A stretch of DNA of 64,000 nt from Neorhizobium galegae bv. orientalis str. HAMBI 540 (GTDB lineage Bacteria > Pseudomonadota > Alphaproteobacteria > Rhizobiales > Rhizobiaceae), in the NCBI RefSeq assembly GCF_000731315.1, contig NZ_HG938353.1, positions 868,001-932,000 of the forward strand. The letters run 5' to 3'. The translations under genes and the position numbers were made by a program. The notes beneath the pieces are model-generated. The model did not search any database. It saw nothing but the letters and a program-made list of their open reading frames with translations, and was not told where the DNA came from. Positions 38,553 through 53,234 of the stretch are shown in pieces. Position 1 is the first letter of the stretch, and each line of letters starts with the position of its first letter.

Positions 38553-40055
38553 TCACTGAAACGCCGTCTCATAAAAGCTTCTCAGCTTGCGCGAATGCAG
38601 TGTCTCGGTCGGCATGGCTGCAAGCTTCTGAACGGCGCGGATGCCGATCTGCAGGTGCTGGCTGACCTGGGTGCGGTAGAAGGCGGTTGCCATGCCGGGC
38701 AGTTTCAGTTCGCCGTGCAGCGGCCGGTCGGAGACGCAGAGCAGCGTCCCATAGGGCACACGGAAGCGGAAACCGTTCGCTGCGATGGTCGCCGATTCCA
38801 TGTCCAGCGCGATGGCGCGCGACTGGGAGAGCCGCTTCACCGGCCCGCGCTGGTCGCGCAGTTCCCAGTTGCGGTTGTCGATCGTCGCGACCGTACCGGT
38901 GCGCATGATCCGCTTGAGCTCGAAACCCTGGTAGCCGGTGACTTCCTCGACGGCGCTTTCCAGCGCCTGCTGCACTTCGGCAAGTGCCGGGATCGGGATC
39001 CACACCGGCAGGTCGTCGTCGAGCACATGGTCTTCGCGCACATAGGCATGCGCCAGCACATAGTCACCCAGGCGCTGGCTGTTGCGCAGGCCGGCGCAGT
39101 GGCCGACCATCAGCCAGGCATGCGGGCGCAGCACGGCGATATGGTCGGTAATCGTCTTGGCGTTCGAAGGCCCGACACCGATATTGACGAGCGTGATGCC
39201 GGCATGCCCCTTCTTCTTCAGATGATAGGCAGGCATCTGCGGCAGGCGGACGACCGCATCGGTTTCCGGTTTGTCGCCGCCGGCAAGCGTGACGATATTG
39301 CCGGGCTCGACGAAGGCCGTGTAGCCGTCGCCGCCCTTTGCCATCATCTCACGGGCCCAGGCCGCGAATTCATCGATGTAGAACTGGTAGTTGGTGAACA
39401 GCACGAAGTTCTGGAAGTGATCGGCACTGGTCGCGGTGTAGTGGCTGAGCCGCGCCAGCGAATAGTCGATCCGCTGGGCGGTGAACGGCGCAAGCGGCGC
39501 CGGCTCGCCAGGCACCTGGTCGTATTCGCCATTGGCGATCAGGTCGTCGGTATTGTTGAGATCCGGCGTGTCGAAGAGATCGCGCAGCGAAATGTCGGCG
39601 AGTGAACTGGTCGCCGACGCTTCCACATGCGCACCTTCGCCGAAAGCGAAATGCAGCGGGATCGGCGTAGTCGATTCGGAAATCGTCACCGGAACGCTGT
39701 GGTTGCGCATCAGCAGGCCGAGCTGTTCCTTGAGGTAATGCCGGAACAGTTTTGGCCGGGTGATGGTCGTCGTATAGACGCCGGGGGACGACACATGGCC
39801 GTAGGAGAGGCGCGAGTCGGCGTGTCCGAATGAGGTCGTCTCGATGCTGACCTGCGGATAGCAGGCGCGGTAGCGGCCGGTCACGGCGGCGCCGTCGGCA
39901 AGCGCTCCGAACGCCTCGATCAGGAACCGCGTGTTGCGCTCGTAGAGCTCGGTCAGGGCATCGACCGCCTCGACCGGATTGTCGAAAGCGCGCGGCTCGA
40001 CCGGGCTCGGGCTGATGAAGGAGAGCGGGGATAGGGAAAAGATTCGTGTGTTCAT
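38553..40055 (-). CDS. amn: AMP nucleosidase
   Basis: A 500-residue cytosolic enzyme that splits AMP into adenine and ribose 5-phosphate. The N-terminal regulatory domain (about 1-180) includes SYGHVSSPGVYTTTITRP, and the C-terminal phosphorylase-like domain includes HAGITLVNIGVGPSNAKT, HAWLMVGHCAGLRNSQRLGD and ALDMESATIAANGFRFRVPYGTLLCVSDRPLHGE, a family hallmark. Length equals the usual 480-500. It stands alone, with vapB 48 bases downstream on the same strand. Confidence 0.95.
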   Translation of the reverse strand: MNTRIFSLSPLSFISPSPVEPRAFDNPVEAVDALTELYERNTRFLIEAFGALADGAAVTGRYRACYPQVSIETTSFGHADSRLSYGHVSSPGVYTTTITRPKLFRHYLKEQLGLLMRNHSVPVTISESTTPIPLHFAFGEGAHVEASATSSLADISLRDLFDTPDLNNTDDLIANGEYDQVPGEPAPLAPFTAQRIDYSLARLSHYTATSADHFQNFVLFTNYQFYIDEFAAWAREMMAKGGDGYTAFVEPGNIVTLAGGDKPETDAVVRLPQMPAYHLKKKGHAGITLVNIGVGPSNAKTITDHIAVLRPHAWLMVGHCAGLRNSQRLGDYVLAHAYVREDHVLDDDLPVWIPIPALAEVQQALESAVEEVTGYQGFELKRIMRTGTVATIDNRNWELRDQRGPVKRLSQSRAIALDMESATIAANGFRFRVPYGTLLCVSDRPLHGELKLPGMATAFYRTQVSQHLQIGIRAVQKLAAMPTETLHSRKLRSFYETAFQ

Positions 40056-40126
40056 GCGCTATTATAGTGGGAACTCAATAACAATCAAACGACGTCAGAA
40101 GGCTTGTGCCGATTGATCCATGAGTT

Positions 40127-40297
40127 TTAAAGCGCCGCGACGCAGTTCGGCGTCGCGGGATGATAGCAAGGCACGGTCGTGCCGAGATGCACGCGCAGAT
40201 CGTTGCGCGCCGGAGCTGCGACAAGCGCGGCAAAGGCAAATGCGAAAATGGTCATGATCAGCGTTACGATTGTCAGGCGACGTGCGAGGACGGTCAT
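40127..40297 (-). CDS. Small membrane or secreted protein (56 aa)
   Basis: Start at ATG 40297 because GGGGAGAG lies just before it; a longer frame to 40504 has no support. One hydrophobic helix at about residues 8-26 (LTIVTLIMTIFAFAFAALVA) is followed by a short polar tail with CYHPATPNC, two cysteines nine residues apart that could form a disulfide in the periplasm. Function unknown. Confidence 0.6.
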   Translation of the reverse strand: MTVLARRLTIVTLIMTIFAFAFAALVAAPARNDLRVHLGTTVPCYHPATPNCVAAL

Positions 40298-40623
40298 GGT
40301 TCTCTCCCCAAAGCCAATGGCGGCAGAATAAAGGCGCGGGGCTGAATGCGTGCTGAGAGAGGGCTTCATCCTGGGTTCAGAATGGTTAACGCCGGCGGAA
40401 CAGAACGGGCGTTTGAATAGCCGCACATGACGGCGTCCTTGCCGGAACCATGACCGCGCGCCGTCACCAGGTGATCGGATGTCGCCATGCGTCTTCGAAG
40501 CCAATGCCGATCGCGAAAAAGCCGACCCGTGAGGGCCGGCTTTGAAATTGGTTCTATCGGTGGAGACGTCATCCCGTGCATTGGCTGCGACCTGCGCGAG
40601 ATGCGGTATCTTGAAGCAACTGC
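40298..40623. other. Intergenic stretch with terminator
   Basis: About 326 bases between two minus-strand small genes. Apart from the terminator-like hairpin at 40518-40543 and the expected promoter for the gene at 40127, I see nothing coding. Confidence 0.5.
40518..40543 (-). terminator. Probable terminator downstream of the isolated YY-protein gene
   Basis: AAAGCCG-A-CCC / GGG-C-CGGCTTT stem with a GTGA loop and a single A/C mismatch. On the minus strand it runs into TTTTTCG, as expected for termination of the gene ending at 40624. Confidence 0.65.
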
Positions 40624-40920
40624 TTAGTTATGCGGACGCAACGTACCGTCGTAGTAGTCGCCTTCGTCCTGTCCACCATCCAGATCGGCATTGCCGCTGG
40701 TATTATTGTTATACATGTAGCCGGTGCCCGGATAGATGCTGCCGGTCGACATGGTATCAACGCCCTGGCCACGATCCCGGCCGCGATCCTGCTGGATGGT
40801 CGGCGGCGACTGCGGCAGGCCGTTCGGGTCAGGATAGACGGCATCCTGTGCCATGGCGGCACCAGTATAACCTGCCGAAATGATAAGAGCGGCAATACCG
40901 GACGTCAGATAGGTTTTCAT
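40624..40920 (-). CDS. Small secreted YY-motif protein, isolated divergent member (gene 7)
   Basis: A 98-residue protein from the ATG at 40920 (AGGACAGGAC before it). Signal peptide MKTYLTSGIAALIISAGYTG ends near AMAQ. The mature part is Pro/Gln/Asn/Gly-rich, holds a central MSTGSIYPG and ends EGDYYDGTLRPHN, the same tail as the six tandem genes upstream but with one extra residue. It lacks the YY motif right after the signal peptide, having DAVYPDPNG instead. It is separated from the array by 453 bases and has its own promoter region and terminator. Function unknown. Confidence 0.78.
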   Translation of the reverse strand: MKTYLTSGIAALIISAGYTGAAMAQDAVYPDPNGLPQSPPTIQQDRGRDRGQGVDTMSTGSIYPGTGYMYNNNTSGNADLDGGQDEGDYYDGTLRPHN

Positions 40921-41205
40921 TGTCCTGTCCTTTCCATCTGTTCTTATGGTGCGAAGCGATAGTCGCATCGCTCCGCCGAAGATAGAAATCCCTGGAAGGA
41001 CGGATCGTTCCAATAGAAATGGAGCGGAGTTGCCACTAAGGGTTTTTCGTCTAGGCGGTGAAAAAGCCTGAAATACCGCGAAAACCGGGCCGTGCGCTGC
41101 CAAATGCAGGAATCTCACGAAGAAGAGCATCAACGTGATTGATTCGTGGAAAAGCTTCACTTAATCTTGAAGACGGTGGCTGGTTTCAGAGTCCTGCCAC
41201 CCACG

Positions 41206-41288
41206 CACCGGAAAGACGATTGCGACCCGTCTTTCCAATCGGTGTCTTGAATGAACTGCGAATACCAGCCGCGCAAGCGGCTGGTATT
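41206..41288. other. Two strong stem-loops downstream of the YY array
   Basis: Hairpin 1: GGAAAGACG (41210-41218) pairs with CGTCTTTCC (41228-41236), extended by CACCG/CGGTG. Hairpin 2: a perfect 12-base stem AATACCAGCCGC (41261-41272) with its complement (41277-41288) and a GCAA loop. On the plus strand hairpin 2 is followed by TCATTTTTCC. The second may be a terminator for a plus-strand transcript, and both together could be a small RNA or an mRNA 3' end of the array. Confidence 0.5.
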
Positions 41289-41373
41289 TCATTTTTCCAT
41301 ATCTTTTCAGTCTGTCCGATCCCGCACGGGGCAAAGCCTCTGTGCGATTATCGATCGCGAGCGAACTCAAGAA

Positions 41374-41634
41374 TTAGTTCGGGCGATTTGCGCCGCTGTA
41401 GTAGTCGCCGCTGTCCAGATCGGAGATACGGTTATCCCGTCCGCCGCCATTGTTGAACGGAAGCTTGCCGTCCTGGCGATCGATGCTGCCGGTGTTGGTG
41501 CGATCGATGGAGGTGGAGACGGAAGGCGCAGTCTTCTGAACGCCCTGGTAATAGTCGCCTTCAGCAAGTGCTGCACCGGCGAACGAAACCGAAGCAAACA
41601 GGGCTGCGGCGAGTGCGGAAGTCATCTTGGTCAT
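41374..41634 (-). CDS. Small secreted YY-motif protein, array gene 6 (type B)
   Basis: An 86-residue protein. Signal peptide MTKMTSALAAALFASVSFAG ends at ALA; the mature chain starts EGDYYQGVQ, has TNTGSIDRQDG in the middle and ends SGDYYSGANRPN. The middle also holds a Gly/Asn/Asp stretch (FNNGGGRDNRISDLDS) not shared by others. It is the last gene of the tandem array; the two stem-loops at 41206-41288 lie downstream. The mature protein is about 62 residues, polar, with no cysteine. No known family or function recognised. Confidence 0.82.
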   Translation of the reverse strand: MTKMTSALAAALFASVSFAGAALAEGDYYQGVQKTAPSVSTSIDRTNTGSIDRQDGKLPFNNGGGRDNRISDLDSGDYYSGANRPN

Positions 41635-41645
41635 TGTCTTATGCC

Positions 41646-41690
41646 TTTCAGAGTTGCCCGCGGCAGTGAGTTTGCGACCCGGCCTGCGGA
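41646..41690 (-). repeat. Conserved spacer element, copy 5 (genes 5-6)
   Basis: In the sense direction it reads TCCGCAGGCCGGGTCGCAAA then CT...GCCGCGG...ACTCTGAAA, shared by all five spacers of the array. This copy is slightly diverged (GGGTCGC for AGGTCGC, GGGCAA for GGAACA). It leads directly into the ribosome binding site of gene 6. Confidence 0.75.
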
Positions 41691-41719
41691 CATATGTTTA
41701 GTATTTTGAATAACGGCGG

Positions 41720-42004
41720 TTAGTTCGGACGAACTGCGCCTTCGTAGTAGTCGCCACGGTTCAGGGTGACCGTGCCGTCGAAGGACTGGCTCGAACCCTG
41801 GGCGCTGGAGACCGAGCCCGTGTGGCCGTAGCTGACGCCCGGATGCTGGGCCTTCGGAGCCGCCTGATGGCTGGAGGCAACCGACTGGCTGGGAGCCGGT
41901 TCGACGGCGCCTTCGTAGTATGTGCCGCCGCTGGCAAGGGCGGCCGTGGCGAAGGAAGCGGTAGCGATCAGCGTAGCAGCGATCGTCGAAGTGATCTTGG
42001 ACAT
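41720..42004 (-). CDS. Small secreted YY-motif protein, array gene 5 (type A)
   Basis: A 94-residue protein with signal peptide MSKITSTIAATLIATASFAT...ALA, a mature start SGGTYYEGAVEPAPSQS, a His/Ala/Pro-containing variable region, then YGHTGSVSSAQGS, QSFDGTVTLN and the tail RGDYYEGAVRPN. The block SFDGTVTLN(R/H)GDYYEGAVRPN defines type A and is shared with genes 2 and 4. The longest member. Spacer copies flank it on both sides. Function unknown; the absence of membrane segments other than the signal peptide implies periplasmic or extracellular location. Confidence 0.82.
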   Translation of the reverse strand: MSKITSTIAATLIATASFATAALASGGTYYEGAVEPAPSQSVASSHQAAPKAQHPGVSYGHTGSVSSAQGSSQSFDGTVTLNRGDYYEGAVRPN

Positions 42005-42016
42005 GGTCCTATTCCT

Positions 42017-42063
42017 TTTCAGAGTGACCCGCGGCTTTAAAGTTTGCGACCTTGGCCTGCGGA
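42017..42063 (-). repeat. Conserved spacer element, copy 4 (genes 4-5)
   Basis: Same element as the other spacers, with one extra base in the CCAAGGTCGC part. The spacer containing it is the longest (106 bases), the others being 85-89. Confidence 0.75.
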
Positions 42064-42110
42064 TGTGGTTGTCTTGGATGACTTGCGGAGTAGCTCGGGC
42101 GAACTTTCAA

Positions 42111-42377
42111 TTAGTTCGGGCGAACTGCACCTTCGTAATAGTCGCCCCGGTTCAGGGTGACCGTGCCGTCGAACGACTGGTTCGACTGGGCGGAGCCCTG
42201 AGCGCGAGCGATCGAACCGGTGTAGCCGAAGCTATCGACGCGGGCGCCCTGGACGGACTGAGCCTGCTGGGTGGGCTGTGCGCCTTCGTAATAATCGCCT
42301 TCTTCGGCAAGAGCGGCGGTGGCGAACGAAGCCGAAGCGATGAAGGCTGCGGCGATAGCGGAGGTGATCCTGGTCAT
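42111..42377 (-). CDS. Small secreted YY-motif protein, array gene 4 (type A)
   Basis: An 88-residue protein. Signal peptide MTRITSAIAAAFIASASFAT...ALA, mature start EEGDYYEGAQPTQQ, a Gln-rich linker, then FGYTGSIARAQGS, a short SNQ insert, SFDGTVTLN and RGDYYEGAVRPN. Closest to gene 5 and gene 2. Preceded by a good ribosome binding site (AAAGGACTACC). Function unknown. Confidence 0.82.
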   Translation of the reverse strand: MTRITSAIAAAFIASASFATAALAEEGDYYEGAQPTQQAQSVQGARVDSFGYTGSIARAQGSAQSNQSFDGTVTLNRGDYYEGAVRPN

Positions 42378-42388
42378 GATGGTAGTCC

Positions 42389-42434
42389 TTTCAGAGTGTT
42401 CCGCGGCGCATCAGTTTGCGACCTGGCCTGCGGA
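42389..42434 (-). repeat. Conserved spacer element, copy 3 (genes 3-4)
   Basis: Sense strand CCGCAGGCCAGGTCGCAAAC, then CTGATGC, then GCCGCGGAACACTCTGAAAG. Taken as the reference form of the element. Confidence 0.78.
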
Positions 42435-42463
42435 AATTGTTTATGTGTCTTGAACGTCTGCGG

Positions 42464-42679
42464 TTAGTTCGGGCGGTTTGCGCCGTCGAAATAGTCGCCG
42501 CTGTTGACGTCTGCCTTCTGGGCTTCGGCCTTCTGACCGATGCTGCCGGTCTGGACCTGGTCGGTCGTGACGGAAACCTTGGAGGCGCCTTCGTAATAGT
42601 CGCCTTCAGCGAGAGCGACGGAAGCGAAGGAAGCCGAAGCGATGAGGGCTGCGGCGATAGCGGAAGTGATCTTGGTCAT
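42464..42679 (-). CDS. Small secreted YY-motif protein, array gene 3 (type B)
   Basis: The shortest member, 71 residues. Signal peptide MTKITSAIAAALIASASFAS...ALA, mature start EGDYYEGASKVSVTTDQ, then VQTGSIGQKAEAQKADVNS and the tail GDYFDGANRPN, where the second Tyr is Phe and Glu is Asp. It is very similar to gene 1 over the first 45 residues. Mature size about 47 residues. Function unknown. Confidence 0.82.
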   Translation of the reverse strand: MTKITSAIAAALIASASFASVALAEGDYYEGASKVSVTTDQVQTGSIGQKAEAQKADVNSGDYFDGANRPN

Positions 42680-42691
42680 TGTGGTAGTCCC

Positions 42692-42736
42692 TTCAGAGTG
42701 TTCCGCGGCTCATGAGTTTGCGACCTGGCCTGCGGA
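42692..42736 (-). repeat. Conserved spacer element, copy 2 (genes 2-3)
   Basis: Nearly identical to copy 3 (CCGCAGGCCAGGTCGCAAAC, CTCATGA, GCCGCGGAACACTCTGAA), placed directly upstream of the gene 3 ribosome binding site. Confidence 0.78.
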
Positions 42737-42768
42737 TTGTTTGTTTCGGTATCTTGCGTGAGCTGCAG

Positions 42769-43038
42769 TTAGTTCGGACGAACTGCACCTTCATAATAGT
42801 CGCCGTGGTTCAGGGTGACCGTGCCGTCGAACGACTGGTTTGAACCCTGAGCGTTGGAGACCGAGCCCGTGTAACCGTAGCTGGCCGAACCCTGGGTATT
42901 CTGATGTATTGACGGATGCTGCTGGCCAGCCGACGGCGGGGTGACGCCTTCGTAATAGTTGCCCTCAGCAAGAGCGGCGGTGGCGAAGGAAGCCGAAGCG
43001 ATGAGGGCTGCGGCGATAGCGGAAGTGATCCTGGTCAT
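42769..43038 (-). CDS. Small secreted YY-motif protein, array gene 2 (type A)
   Basis: An 89-residue protein. Signal peptide MTRITSAIAAALIASASFAT...ALA, mature start EGNYYEGVTPPSAGQQ, His/Gln linker, YGYTGSVSNAQGSNQ, SFDGTVTLN and the tail HGDYYEGAVRPN. The N-terminal motif has Asn in place of Asp. It follows gene 1 after an 87-base spacer. Function unknown. Confidence 0.82.
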   Translation of the reverse strand: MTRITSAIAAALIASASFATAALAEGNYYEGVTPPSAGQQHPSIHQNTQGSASYGYTGSVSNAQGSNQSFDGTVTLNHGDYYEGAVRPN

Positions 43039-43050
43039 GATGGTAGTCCC

Positions 43051-43094
43051 TTCAGAGTGTTCCGCGGCTTCAAAGTTTGCGACCTGGCTGCGGA
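43051..43094 (-). repeat. Conserved spacer element, copy 1 (genes 1-2)
   Basis: Same element with GG lost after CCGCA (CCGCAGCCAGGTCGCAAAC). It is absent upstream of gene 1 and of the isolated gene 7, so it belongs to the internal junctions of the array only. Confidence 0.75.
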
Positions 43095-43125
43095 TTATTG
43101 TTTCGGTGTTTTGAATGAGCTGCGG

Positions 43126-43350
43126 TTAGTTCGGGCGATTTGCGCCTTCATAATAGTCGCCGCGGCCGATCGGAGCCTGGATCTGGTTGGCGGCCTGTTG
43201 ATCCTTCGCAATGCTGCCGGTCTGAACGTGGTCGACAGTAGCGGAGGCCTTGGAGGCGCCTTCATAATAGTCGCCTTCAGCAAGGGCGACGGAAGCGAAA
43301 GAAGCCGAAGCGATAAGAGCAGCGGCGAATGCGGATGTGATCTTGGTCAT
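43126..43350 (-). CDS. Small secreted YY-motif protein, array gene 1 (type B)
   Basis: A 74-residue protein at the head of the array. Signal peptide MTKITSAFAAALIASASFAS...ALA, mature start EGDYYEGASKASATVD, HVQTGSIAKDQQA in the middle and the tail RGDYYEGANRPN. Its upstream region (43351 onward) lacks the spacer element and instead carries palindromes at 43429-43438 and 43470-43488, so the main promoter of the array is probably there. Function unknown. Confidence 0.82.
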   Translation of the reverse strand: MTKITSAFAAALIASASFASVALAEGDYYEGASKASATVDHVQTGSIAKDQQAANQIQAPIGRGDYYEGANRPN

Positions 43351-43924
43351 TGTCTTTATCCTTGGAGTATGTTCGGTTCGGTCTTGGGGCGAACCAGAGT
43401 GAATTTCTGTTTGCGATGCTGATATCGGACCGATCGGTTCGATCCGAAAGCCCCACTTTTGACGACTGCTGTCAACGAAACGTTGACAACCAAAATCGGC
43501 TTTTAAAAATGCACGCTAAAAGTGCTAAGCAAGCTAATTTTTTTTGAAATTGCCGCAAATAAACCGATTAAGTTACGGTTTGGTAAGATAATTATCTATG
43601 TATATCAAGTGCATAGATAGGTCTGACAGAATTTGCAGCGCCTGCGTGTGTATTTTGGCAGAACAAGGCTTTTTTGAGACTTCTATGTGGCAAAAATTGC
43701 GTTCAAGGCCTATTCAAGCTTTTCACAAAACTGTGACATCCAAAAATCCACCGGACTTGGCGGTCAAATCCGATGCCGTTTCCGTGATCATGGTGCCTCT
43801 TGTTGGTGCGACGCAGCAAAAAAATCAGGCAGTCCTTGACGTCGCGAGACGAAAAATGGCCGCGGCCCTTGCCGGCGCGACCATCTCTGCACTTCTTATA
43901 TAAGGAATATGGGACGAGCCGACC
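43351..43924. other. AT-rich region upstream of the YY array
   Basis: About 570 bases, clearly more AT-rich than the genes around it. It should hold the array promoter (minus strand). A plus-strand frame from ATG 43685 to 43903 would encode 72 residues (starting MWQKLRSRPIQAFHK, ending GATISALLI) but has no convincing ribosome binding site, so I do not call it a gene. Confidence 0.5.
43470..43488. promoter_or_regulatory. Palindrome upstream of the YY array
   Basis: TGTCAACG-AAA-CGTTGACA, a perfect inverted repeat with 8-base arms, 120 bases before the gene 1 start codon. A smaller palindrome ACCGATCGGT is at 43429-43438. On the minus strand TTGACA within the right half could also act as a -35 element. 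Candidate operator. Confidence 0.5.
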
Positions 43925-44263
43925 TTAGAGGCGCGTCCAGGTCTGCGATTTGCAAAAGATCGCGAGGACACAGCCCTTCATCTTCAGCGAATTGCCGCTG
44001 ACCGAGCCTGAGCCGCTATAGGTCTTGTCGTCCGCAGGATCGGTGATCTCGCCGCTATATTCGCCGTCCTTGCCGGAGAGCTTGCCGATCTGCTTGCCGG
44101 AATGTTTGCCGGTCTTCAGCGTCACGCAATAGGCGGTGTCGCATTTGCCGATCGCTGCGGTCTCGCCGCTGGCGGTTTTCCAATTGCCTTCGATCGGCTC
44201 GGCGGCCTGGGCCCCAGCTGCGGCAAGTGTCAGCGCGGCAGCAAGCATCAGTCTGCGCATCAT
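43925..44263 (-). CDS. DUF2147-family exported protein
   Basis: A 112-residue protein with a signal peptide (MMRRLMLAAALTLAAAGAQA, cleaved before AEPIEG). The mature domain begins EGNWKTASGETAAIGKC and ends CVLAIFCKSQTWTRL, as in DUF2147 proteins, which form a small beta barrel of unknown function. Four cysteines in two close pairs suggest disulfides. Stands alone. Confidence 0.85.
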   Translation of the reverse strand: MMRRLMLAAALTLAAAGAQAAEPIEGNWKTASGETAAIGKCDTAYCVTLKTGKHSGKQIGKLSGKDGEYSGEITDPADDKTYSGSGSVSGNSLKMKGCVLAIFCKSQTWTRL

Positions 44264-44786
44264 GATTGTTTCCTCCTTTGCTTCCGCCGTCAGACCTTCT
44301 CAAGCGATAGACGGCGCGGTTTCCTCTAATTCGCACCCCTTTGCGCGAACCCGGTTCGAAATTTATCTTACCCGTACGTAAAGGTAAATATCGGATTGGC
44401 TTGGAAAACGGGGGATTTACAGCGTCGGGGAGGGCCAGGTTTTTCCACAGATCCCCGATGCGACCCGGATTCGTAGTTAGCGATCAGTTTAAATCGATTT
44501 CTAAATTTTTCGTAAAAATCTCCGCAAATTCCTTAAAATGCAAGGCATCCCATGTTTAACAAAAAGCCAAGTTTACCAAGCGTTTGTACTTTGTTTTCGT
44601 TGAATTAATCATGCTTTTTAGGCGTCTTTTGGAAGGTTGGGCGCATAGTGAAGTCATCAAACGAGCGGGAAAAACCGCCGGCCGGAAGGATCGAAACAGC
44701 CGCTTTAAGACGGTGATCCGGACGGAGCCCGAAAGGGCAAAAACAGGGCAGACGACGAACAACAGGCTTTAACAGGGATCAAACCG
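44264..44786. other. Long intergenic region between DUF2147 and Sel1-like genes
   Basis: About 520 bases, AT-rich, between divergent genes. TTACC...GGTAA with CGTACG in the centre lies at 44368-44387 and resembles the 22111-22130 site. A 62-codon frame at 44584-44772 is basic and has no recognisable features; I see no gene. Confidence 0.5.
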
Positions 44787-50528: not shown

Positions 50529-50946
50529 TTCCAGGCTCGAAACGCCCGCCCAATTCTGAATCCCAATGCCGTTCTGATCGACCTTTGCCAGCTGCTCGCA
50601 CGGCCGTGCACCCGCGCCACCTGACGGGCGAGGTGATTCCCTTCCGAGGCTTCTCCGCGGCGCTAAGTGGCTGCCGGATAAGCCCTTTCTTAACAAAACG
50701 TAAAATACCACCTAAGGCAGTCCCCGGCTTTGTGTCCTTTCGGCAACAGACTTCTGGGAAGCGGGTACCGGAATGGCGTCCGGTTGAAGTTCCAGATTGC
50801 ATGACCCTCCCCGTCTTGTATTTTCAAATCCGGAAGCGAGGCGGTGGATCGTCCTTCTTCTAGCAATCGACGGGGATGGGGCAGGGAACGCTGTCCTTCA
50901 GCCAAAAGAACCCAGACCCATACGAAACTTTGACTGGAGGTCAAAA
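50529..50946. other. Region between tRNA-Ser and the first porin
   Basis: About 420 bases. It should contain the porin promoter and a leader; the stretch just before the porin has GACTGGAGGTC, which is also found before the second porin. No gene is supported. Confidence 0.5.
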
Positions 50947-52011
50947 ATGAACATCAAGAGCCTTCTTCTCGGCTCCGCTGCTGCCCTCGCAGCAGTCTCC
51001 GGCGCTCAGGCAGCTGACGCCATCGTAGCTGCTGAACCGGAGCCCATGGAATACGTTCGCGTTTGCGACGCTTTCGGCACCGGCTACTTCTACATCCCGG
51101 GCACCGAAACCTGCCTCAAGATCGGCGGTTATGTCCGTTTCCAGGCTGATATCGGCCAGGACGTAAACTCCTTCAACGACTCGGACTGGGATACTTTCAG
51201 CCGCGTTCAGCTCGACTTCACCGCGAAGTCTGACACCGAACTTGGTACGCTGACCTCGGTTGCTTCGGTTCGTTTCGAAGCTAACCAGGACGTTGGTTAC
51301 ACGTCCAACGGCAGCTCCAACGGCGCTTACATCAACGAAGCCTACATCCAGCTGGGCGGCTTCAAGGTTGGTCGTTACTACAACCCTTGGGATAAGGGCA
51401 TCAACGGCGAATCCGATTGGAACTCTGCTGGCCAGACCCGTATGCAGTCTGTCGGCTACTTCTACACGGGCTCTGCCTTCACCGCTGGCGTCCAGGTTGA
51501 CGAACTGTCGCGTCTCAAGGGCCTTGGTAGCCAGGACGTCGGTATCGAAGCTATTGTCACTGCTAAGTTCGGCGCTGTAGCGTTCGACCTTCTCGGCGCT
51601 TATGACTTCGCCGCTGAAAATGGCGCAGTCCGCGCTCTCATCTCGGCTCCGGTCGGTCCGGGCACCTTCCAGGCTCTCGCCATCTGGTCGAGCGGTGTGG
51701 GTGATGCGAACTTCGATAATGCCTACTACGCACGTGGTGAATGGGCTCTCGCTGCTTCGTACGCCTTCAAGGTCTCCGACAAGCTGACGATCACCCCCGG
51801 TGGTACGTATGTCTGGAACTCCCAGGTTGACGGCGATGGTGATTTTGGTGGCGACGAAGCCTACCGCGTTGGTCTGACGGTCGACTACACGATCGTTCCG
51901 GGCTTCACTGCAAAGGTCACTGCGAACTACAACCAGACGCAGGCCGACGGTGCGACGGTGCGTGAAAACAAGTTCTGGGATGGCTTTGTCCGTCTCGACC
52001 GCACGTTCTAA
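50947..52011 (+). CDS. Outer-membrane porin, RopA/Omp2b family (first copy)
   Basis: A 354-residue beta-barrel porin. Signal peptide MNIKSLLLGSAAALAAVSGA is cleaved before ADAIVAAEPEP. The porin hallmark EYVRVCDAFGTGYFYIPGTE-TCLKIGGYVRF follows, with a conserved cysteine pair, then repeated amphipathic strands, and the last residue is the Phe of LDRTF, needed for barrel assembly. It forms general-diffusion trimers. TGGAGGTCAAAA before the start is a strong ribosome binding site. Base use is unlike neighbours, with many GCT, GGT and AAC codons expected for a highly expressed gene. A second copy follows 182 bases downstream. Confidence 0.93.
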   Translation: MNIKSLLLGSAAALAAVSGAQAADAIVAAEPEPMEYVRVCDAFGTGYFYIPGTETCLKIGGYVRFQADIGQDVNSFNDSDWDTFSRVQLDFTAKSDTELGTLTSVASVRFEANQDVGYTSNGSSNGAYINEAYIQLGGFKVGRYYNPWDKGINGESDWNSAGQTRMQSVGYFYTGSAFTAGVQVDELSRLKGLGSQDVGIEAIVTAKFGAVAFDLLGAYDFAAENGAVRALISAPVGPGTFQALAIWSSGVGDANFDNAYYARGEWALAASYAFKVSDKLTITPGGTYVWNSQVDGDGDFGGDEAYRVGLTVDYTIVPGFTAKVTANYNQTQADGATVRENKFWDGFVRLDRTF

Positions 52012-52020
52012 TCATAACGG

Positions 52021-52050
52021 AACTCCCCCGGTTCGCCGGGGGAGTTTTCT
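52021..52050 (+). terminator. Terminator of first porin
   Basis: A perfect 11-base stem AACTCCCCCGG with its complement and a stable TTCG tetraloop, followed by TTCT. Confidence 0.88.
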
Positions 52051-52193
52051 ATAAGTGGTTGGCCTCTATGCAGGGCCTCCATATGGGGAGTTGATACCGG
52101 GGGATGGGGCTGCTTATGCGGCCTTTACGTGTTTGATTAATTTTCGATCGGGCGCGAATTAGCATTCAGAGAAATTGACTGGAGGTCAAAAGA

Positions 52194-53234
52194 ATGAACA
52201 TTAAGAGCCTTCTTCTCGGTTCTGCAGCGGCTCTCGCGGCAGTTTCCGGTGCTCAGGCTGCCGACGCCATCGTCGCTGCCGAACCGGAGCCTATGGAATA
52301 CGTTCGCGTCTGCGACGCGTTTGGCACTGGTTACTTCTACATCCCGGGCACGGAAACCTGCCTCAAGGTCGGCGGTTATGTCCGTTTCGAAGTCGGCTTT
52401 AGCAATGGCGAGAACGCCTTTAACGGCGCTGACTGGGATTCGTACAGCCGCGCTCAGCTTGACTTCACGGCCAAGAGCGACACGGAACTTGGTACGCTGA
52501 CCTCGGTTGCTTCGGTTCGTTTCGAAGCCAACCAGGATGTTGGTTACACGTCCAACGGCAGCTCCAACGGCGCTTACATCAACGAAGCCTACATCCAGCT
52601 CGGCGGATTCCGCGTCGGCCGTTGGCTGAACTGGTGGGATGCCAACGACCTTCCGGGCGAAGCGGACAACCTCGGTTCGAACCGTCTCCAGTCGATCTCG
52701 TACACCTATACCGGCTCTGCCTTCACGGCTGGCGTTCAGGTTGACGAACTGTCGCGCCCTGCTGGCGTTGGCGGTCAGAACGTCGGTGTCGAAGCTGTCA
52801 TCCAGGCTGCAATCGGCCCGGCTAAGCTCGAACTGCTCGGTTCTTATGACTTCGGCGCAGAAGAAGGCGCTATCCGTGCGATCGGCTCGGTTGCCGTTGG
52901 TCCGGGCACCTTCTATCTTTCCGGTGTTTGGTCTTCGGGTGAGAACGCATATTACGGCGTGAGCGATACCGCTGCTGGTGAAGCAGCCGTTGCTGTAGCC
53001 TATTCCTTCAAGGCGACCGACAAGCTCGAAATCATTCCGGAAGCCCAGTACACCTGGAACACGGAACTGACCGCTGATAACGAATTCACCGGTGCTGACA
53101 CCTGGACCGCTGGTGCAACCATCAACTACCAGATCGTCGAAGGCTTCGCAGCCAAGGTTGCCGTCAACTACTTCAAGGTCGAAGACGGCGCCGACCAGGT
53201 TCGCGGTCTCGTCCGCTTGCAGCGCGACTTCTAA
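52194..53234 (+). CDS. Outer-membrane porin, RopA/Omp2b family (second copy)
   Basis: A 346-residue paralogue of the preceding porin. Its first 60 residues and the block from LDFTAKSDTELGTLTSVASV through AYINEAYIQLGGF are the same as in the first, while other strands and loops differ (for example RVGRWLNWWDANDLPGEADN for the GRYYNPWDKGINGES region). It ends with Phe in LQRDF. The ribosome binding site is identical. Own promoter probably lies in the 180 bases between the copies. Confidence 0.93.
   Translation: MNIKSLLLGSAAALAAVSGAQAADAIVAAEPEPMEYVRVCDAFGTGYFYIPGTETCLKVGGYVRFEVGFSNGENAFNGADWDSYSRAQLDFTAKSDTELGTLTSVASVRFEANQDVGYTSNGSSNGAYINEAYIQLGGFRVGRWLNWWDANDLPGEADNLGSNRLQSISYTYTGSAFTAGVQVDELSRPAGVGGQNVGVEAVIQAAIGPAKLELLGSYDFGAEEGAIRAIGSVAVGPGTFYLSGVWSSGENAYYGVSDTAAGEAAVAVAYSFKATDKLEIIPEAQYTWNTELTADNEFTGADTWTAGATINYQIVEGFAAKVAVNYFKVEDGADQVRGLVRLQRDF

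Follow-up and report, generated by a model that had tools for sequence, protein, structure and literature searches.

The array and its closest described relatives

The named protein family closest to the genes described here is DUF680 (PF05079 in Pfam), a family of short, exported-looking proteins that is itself of uncharacterised function. The genes in question form an array at positions 40624..43350 of a 64,000-nucleotide (nt) stretch of the soil- and root-dwelling bacterium Neorhizobium galegae bv. orientalis str. HAMBI 540 (NZ_HG938353.1), hereafter the window, to which all positions refer. The array encodes seven paralogous proteins, here called YY proteins after a YYxG motif that most carry at both ends of the mature chain, and its cistrons are separated by an RNA hairpin which is the strongest and most unusual feature of the locus.

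DUF680 proteins resemble the YY proteins in their signal peptide, their short length, a D-[HN]-Y or similar motif after the cleavage site and a central D-x-x-x-T-(G/A)-S-(I/V). However, the seven DUF680-type proteins that we aligned end in (F/W)G(N/R) and not in GDYYxGxxRPN. None of the seven window proteins matches PF05079 at E 1, nor does any protein of the genome at E 0.01. Ten relatives that were rescanned score 16.1-21.1 bits, all under the 24-bit gathering cut-off; one protein from the same genus exceeds it (genome G140, 26.8 bits), and a precomputed PF05079 label is attached to 20 of the 120 homologues listed. Membership of DUF680 thus fails at the cut-off, yet the profiles are related: hhalign aligns the family with DUF680-type proteins at a probability of 96.2 % over 50 columns, covering the DxxxTGSI region with the signal peptide as part of the match. 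DUF680-type genes also occur as neighbouring copies, in loci L029 and L056 (six of them scoring 29-75 bits for DUF680), where the model of the hairpin described below has no match at E 1.

A second set of relatives consists of Sinorhizobium/Ensifer hypothetical proteins (P0121-P0155; GGSYYEG...TGSV...GEGEYYQGISR), which have the same three-motif layout over their full length, with a profile match of 98.7 %, and a different tail. They are present in 1-3 copies in sampled genomes of groups g46 and g71, and P0121 has no Pfam family at E 0.1. In their loci (L044-L050) the hairpin model matches only twice, weakly (E 0.11 and 0.93).

Beyond these, no Pfam or NCBIfam family passed its cut-off with the window proteins or with a 58-member alignment, families being judged by their first member and by best E-values, and the PDB gave no match better than E 0.37. 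Matches to Ca_hom_mod, penta_MxKDx, BhsA and CALHM were rejected, being below cut-off or at E >= 0.37 and in many cases falling on the signal peptide. The string GDYYEG occurs in no paper searched. Among the matches listed, no literature on DUF680 concerned rhizobia and, judged by title, none on Neorhizobium dealt with the array genes. An initial sequence-only reading of the array had held that no described system has this layout. This stands in that no homologue in a family of known function, and no described function, was found, and is qualified by the nearness of the sub-threshold, uncharacterised DUF680.

All seven open reading frames (ORFs) are on the minus strand, each starting with an ATG at its higher coordinate: g1 (43126..43350, 74 amino acids (aa)), g2 (42769..43038, 89 aa), g3 (42464..42679, 71 aa), g4 (42111..42377, 88 aa), g5 (41720..42004, 94 aa), g6 (41374..41634, 86 aa) and the divergent last gene g7 (40624..40920, 98 aa). 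The intergenic distances from g1 to g6 are 87, 89, 86, 106 and 85 nt, and a gap of 453 nt precedes g7. Identity to g1 is 57, 75, 62, 53, 54 and 40 % for g2 to g7. By a simple A-x-A rule, applied without a signal-peptide predictor, cleavage falls after residue 24 in all seven, leaving predicted mature chains of 47-74 residues with a net charge of -2 to -7 and no cysteine; cysteine is likewise absent past residue 22 from all 166 distinct family members. AlphaFold2 predicts g1 to be disordered (58 sequences; predicted local distance difference test 56.1, predicted TM-score 0.12, no secondary structure).

The array proposed by the sequence-only reading is real, with its synteny kept in relatives, and a TGS(I/V) motif is present in all seven proteins as described. 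Other details needed amendment. The near-identical signal peptides are those of g1-g6, that of g7 being different. The motif after the presumed cleavage site, given as (G)DYYEG in six of the seven, is YYxG in six and exactly DYYEG in only three (g1, g3 and g4). The tail, given as GDYY(E/D/S)GAxRPN-like, is conserved in all seven as GDY(Y/F)xG..RP(H)N, with g3 carrying the variant GDYF and ending GDYFDGANRPN; g7 ends in GDYYDGTLRPHN. Moreover, the earlier reading missed the RNA hairpins, an [STG]RD[ND][RN] motif found in 34 of 166 distinct members (GRDNR within g6; it precedes the tail in g6-type proteins) and the tailless paralogues beside ABC-transporter genes.

Its proposal that the C-terminus alone is the working part did not hold. 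Uncorrected ratios of nonsynonymous to synonymous polymorphism (pN/pS) over four segments were 0.05-0.38 in six ortholog groups (g1, g2, g4, g6, g7 and the first gene of the tailless pair, with 5-6 sequences each; g3 and g5 were left out). Constraint on the tail is about matched by that on the signal peptide and on the N-terminal YY motif, and one subfamily is tailless. The tested groups are under purifying selection, middles included; given the middle values of 0.21-0.32, the variable middles represent difference between paralogues and not missing constraint.

A profile of the seven array proteins finds 13 members at five loci of the N. galegae genome (E <= 1.1e-7): the array itself, pairs at C1:2751 kb (L009) and C2:47 kb (L011), and two singles (L023, L012). 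No member was found at a further locus of this genome, L010. The L011 pair retains EGDYY(E/Q)G and TGSI, ends in RDNR, lacks the YY tail and adjoins genes with solute-binding and ABC-permease domains, by eye a transporter of the molybdate type. It belongs to a conserved tailless subfamily (L011, L090, L094, L095, L097-L100) arranged as a pair or triplet with the hairpin between copies; these mostly end in [ST]RDNR, and the first L090 copy has another ending.

Among 297 Rhizobiaceae genomes including the own one, with at most 17 candidates scored per genome, a match at E 0.001 was found in 22, from 9 of 109 genera. Genomes of the same genus give the strongest, four of them with 13, 12, 11 and 5 copies and a fifth with none; the weakest, near 1e-3, may be to signal peptides only. 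A scan of named genomes added 45 loci, in records labelled Neorhizobium, Rhizobium, Pseudorhizobium, Xaviernesmea oryzae and Rhizobiales bacterium, so that the window, the four other own-genome loci and these together hold 172 members (166 distinct). These names overstate the spread across genera, because at least one Pseudorhizobium-like genome (G259, whose locus L041 matches L084) falls in the genus group of N. galegae.

In all 15 loci of relatives that contain both the DUF2147 gene and amn (AMP nucleosidase), the array lies between the two. The comparison of gene number that the sequence-only reading had suggested gives 2-6 tandem genes followed by a g7 type at these loci; array size thus varies among relatives, and the g7 orthologue closes the array there as well. 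N. vignae carries a second array (L072, 5562-7381) in which a two-gene unit has been amplified; the protein copies are identical and therefore the duplication looks recent. Other genus groups have amn and DUF2147 genes without the array: 28 of their amn loci, with flanks of up to 1.5 kb, contain no family-like ORF, and these together with ten longer stretches (38 in total) give no profile match at E 1. The proteins are a lineage-specific, amplified paralogue family.

A covarying hairpin tied to the YY genes

The spacers between cistrons, and the region following the last gene, contain a hairpin whose loop, GGUCGC, hardly varies and whose stem covaries; a UUCAAGAYAYCG box stands upstream of it. 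The copies detected by a covariance model, all on the minus strand, precede g2 (43048..43103, 49.4 bits, loop GGTCGCAAACT), g3 (42689..42745, 59.4 bits), g4 (42387..42443, 57.9 bits), g5 (42015..42072, 45.7 bits) and g6 (41644..41699, 57.0 bits), the last four having been used in building the model. Two variant copies, also on the minus strand, were missed by the model and recognised by their box and loop words: one in the g6-g7 gap, 3′ of a strong inverted repeat (41208..41253, loop GGGTCGCAATC), and one in the 3′ untranslated region of g7 (40570..40617), its box 8 nt past the stop codon. The element also follows some single-copy genes. At 6287 in L089, 6290 in L092, 6221 in L107 and 6276 in L087 it sits just past the stop codon with no later member in the stretch.

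Its position relative to the genes is nearly fixed. In 97 of the 172 members a GGTCGCA-like loop occurs within 110 nt upstream; its distance from the start codon is 40-57 nt, in most cases 43-47 nt. Those without one are for the most part first genes, genes of the g7 type, singles or distant members. In 90 of 91 cases the box TTCAAGAYAYCG or a variant of it has the loop behind it.

Pairing of the two arms is supported in several ways. In 20 non-redundant hairpins the mean duplex energy of an arm with its own partner is -17.6 kcal/mol, against -11.05 (standard deviation 0.69) when partners are permuted, and none of 20000 permutations was as good. In an alignment fitted to the model (100 distinct rows) 85.2 % of cells are paired, against 78.1 % after shuffling and 33-46 % in slid controls. 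Two-sided changes occupy 55 cells of the stem against 17.7 in shuffles, and all 8 pairs of the lower stem have them. An unfitted alignment of 34 copies behaves similarly, with 76.0 % paired against 68.7 %.

The element is also specific to the family. At E 1 the model has 112 matches over 74 sources, with 34 copies that built it and hence match by construction; 107 of the matches adjoin a family member and the other five have E >= 0.11. In the N. galegae genome all 8 matches with E < 1e-4 are at family genes, and the next, at E 0.08, sits in DNA that reads like coding sequence. The L012 copy, which the model misses in this search, rests on its box and loop words. The loop word GGTCGCAAACT has 11 copies in the genome (2 for the reversed control), of which seven are in family spacers and four lie in coding-like DNA with the flanks absent. 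Similarly, of nine copies of the box word five are at family genes, and four are inside open frames (172 to 743 codons long) and lack the loop.

A more stringent box-loop pattern, limited to short-gap copies, matches at 15 places in 7 of 394 Rhizobiaceae genomes (3 control matches), five of these being among the eight genomes of the own genus; the two matches in other genera are probably chance. Through one match, in L151, an additional YY gene was located, its stop codon closely followed by the element.

Rfam 15 covariance models gave no family even at E 5 over window positions 40000-44500, and literature matches listed for four strings of the element were all unrelated by title. The element nevertheless resembles structured RNA families of Rfam in combining a conserved box with a covarying hairpin, as in a cis-regulatory RNA: it has a covarying helix, conserved unpaired residues and a fixed position relative to the gene. 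It looks new and may control gene expression.

Transcription signals and codon usage

Upstream of g1 lies an operator-like dyad, GTCAA-N7-TTGAC (43471..43487, minus strand), which is invariant among 18 aligned loci; its sequence in the window, GTCAAYNTNTYRTTGAC, is the sole copy in the genome. The upstream regions of first genes in these loci have in common the dyad, as GTCAA-N7-TTGACA, and a conserved block ending CCGATAT (CTTTCGGATCGAACCGATCGGTCCGATAT, 43422..43450, minus strand).

The last gene appears to have a promoter of the general-stress type. A motif GGAAC-N18-TT lies upstream of g7 (40987..41011, minus strand) and matches the RpoE2/EcfG consensus given in PMC6011840 and PMC3892343, GGAAC-N16-CGTT, with the CG before TT lost in the window copy. 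In the 140 nt upstream of members, GGAAC-N17..19-TT occurs in 19 of 19 g7-type genes against none of 153 other members and 1.8 % of shuffles; the twentieth g7-type gene, in L078, has it too once its start is corrected, making 20 of 20. The likeness to the EcfG/RpoE2 regulon is one of motif only and extends to g7 alone in the family. A single match would be weak evidence, since the motif is upstream of 469 genes in the strain of PMC6011840, as that paper reports; it is conservation that carries the argument. As a separate observation, the g7 leader (40918-41040, minus strand) folds far better than its shuffles (z -3.18, 0 of 200), unlike the array spacers.

A 13-bp terminator-like inverted repeat (41260..41289) follows g6 and recurs after g6-type genes of relatives, with the box-hairpin element directly behind it. 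Its T run is on the plus-strand side, so that termination of a minus-strand operon there is uncertain. After g7 a terminator-like hairpin with a T run (40516..40543, minus strand) was found by eye and is not in the inverted-repeat scan.

Codon usage was scored by the codon adaptation index (CAI) against 22 ribosomal-region genes (own mean 0.703, minimum 0.544). Values for g1-g7 span 0.602-0.804, compared with a mean of 0.543 (standard deviation 0.117) for 67 local background ORFs. Each of the seven genes scores above that mean, at percentiles 84, 84, 100, 100, 100, 72 and 69; g1 and g2 score 0.660 and 0.654, and g3, g4 and g5 (0.804, 0.758 and 0.752) lie above all 67. Elsewhere in the genome the L009 pair scores 0.740 and 0.745 and the L011 pair 0.703 and 0.624. 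This bias suggests that the array proteins are probably abundant and strongly expressed.

A proposed linker operon and its alternatives

Taken together, these data suggest a reading in which g1-g6 form one operon, transcribed as a single message with high output, whose products would be small, abundant, Sec-exported, disordered proteins. The last gene, g7, would be transcribed separately from its general-stress promoter. Because most members have YYxG at both ends of a short mature chain, we infer from this anatomy that each protein may act as a two-ended linker, either periplasmic or extracellular, with the paralogues varying spacer length and internal motifs (TGSI, RDNR). The hairpin would be a cis-acting post-transcriptional element that determines the output of each cistron by way of RNA stability, processing or factor binding. 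As a whole, we hold this reading of an exported disordered linker operon with a family-specific RNA element and a stress-controlled g7 tentatively, somewhat short of an even chance. Its gene, regulation and RNA components have sequence support. An uncharacterised exported-looking family becomes testable through the strong codon bias of most array genes, the varying array size and named regulatory handles (the genome-unique dyad, the EcfG-type promoter and the hairpin), the last being a possible new RNA family with a mutable loop that also marks further members, as in L151.

Several observations weigh against this reading. Codon bias is weaker in g6 (0.625), g7 (0.602) and the singles L012 (0.489) and L023 (0.467), although single values are noisy because the genes are short, and we found no expression, proteomic or localisation data on the family in the literature. 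The two YY ends are not universal, since by regular expression the N-terminal YYxG is missing in 21 of 166 members and the tail YYxG in 23 of 166. As for the hairpin, an arm's own partner is its very best in only 11 of 20 cases and ranks 2-7 in the other nine. RNAalifold returned no structure from the unfitted alignment (MAFFT, A4), which we think is because the arms are out of register, and single-sequence folding of five spacers gave weak z-scores (-0.08 to -0.85), little beyond shuffles. An outer helix pairing the UUCAAGA box with a UCUGAA before the Shine-Dalgarno sequence was rejected, as it reached P > 0.5 in 3 of 72 copies; UCUGA(A/G) itself occurs in 60 of 72. Moreover, the stricter pattern, with genomes grouped by genus, places the element almost wholly within one genus, and it is absent from the distant arrays L042 and L043 and from the Sinorhizobium-type L047. 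The proteins therefore do not need the hairpin.

Three explanations of the hairpin can be set beside one another. That the GGUCGC box-hairpin is an undescribed RNA family dedicated to YY genes, its loop and box being read by a small RNA or by an RNA-binding protein of their own, is possible, though we would not expect it; Neorhizobium and its kin would then have a private post-transcriptional regulon tuning all YY genes, for an abundant two-ended tyrosine linker at the cell surface. It could instead be a generic intercistronic stabiliser of mRNA, or a processing site, acting without a dedicated factor, in the manner of REP elements and the hairpin in photosynthesis operons. Such a role fits where it lies, between the cistrons of a codon-optimised operon and 3′ of genes ahead of terminator-like hairpins; a stabiliser would need the stem only, whereas here it is the stem that changes while the GGUCGC loop and the box are nearly fixed across species, and we consider a generic stabiliser doubtful. 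A functionless repeat copied along with the genes would account for its presence in exact duplicates (N. vignae L072), with which it has travelled. However, the compensatory stem changes and nearly invariant loop between species need selection, and the spacing from hairpin to following start codon hardly varies, making this explanation very improbable.

The proteins, for their part, might be disordered periplasmic stress protectants, or binders of metals or other ligands through their tyrosines and acidic residues, and not linkers. The EcfG-type motif on g7, the acidic, cysteine-free chains with predicted disorder in g1, and the position of the tailless pair beside the transporter genes are all consistent with this. 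Yet there is no cysteine and, by eye, no histidine-rich metal motif, and the YY motif sits at the two ends and is not repeated along the chain; we therefore regard this as unlikely. Less likely still is a role as precursors, from which cleavage around the recurring YY motifs would release secreted signal peptides aimed at kin or at a plant host. The small size and exported look of the proteins, their recurring end motifs and the number of paralogues would suit this. Against it, the final HN of g7 varies among orthologues (RPFG, RPTN, RPQ, RPQD, TPHN and PPTN), the family is also found in records named Pseudorhizobium, and no gene for a processing protease, transporter or receptor was noticed at the locus, for which no targeted search was made. 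A likeness of the DYY...RPHN of g7 to tyrosine-sulfated plant peptides, suggesting mimicry, was set aside as unsupported, orthologue tails not all keeping the ending.

Lastly, two features elsewhere in the window were noted. Between g7 and amn an ORF of about 55 aa at 40130-40294 (minus strand; MTVLARRLTIVTL...) looks exported; it has no Pfam match at E 0.01, and similar ORFs lie near amn in five other loci (L201-L205). At 50797-53234, two similar porin-like genes stand in tandem; they share the mature start ADAIVAAEPEP, and their signal peptides are identical.

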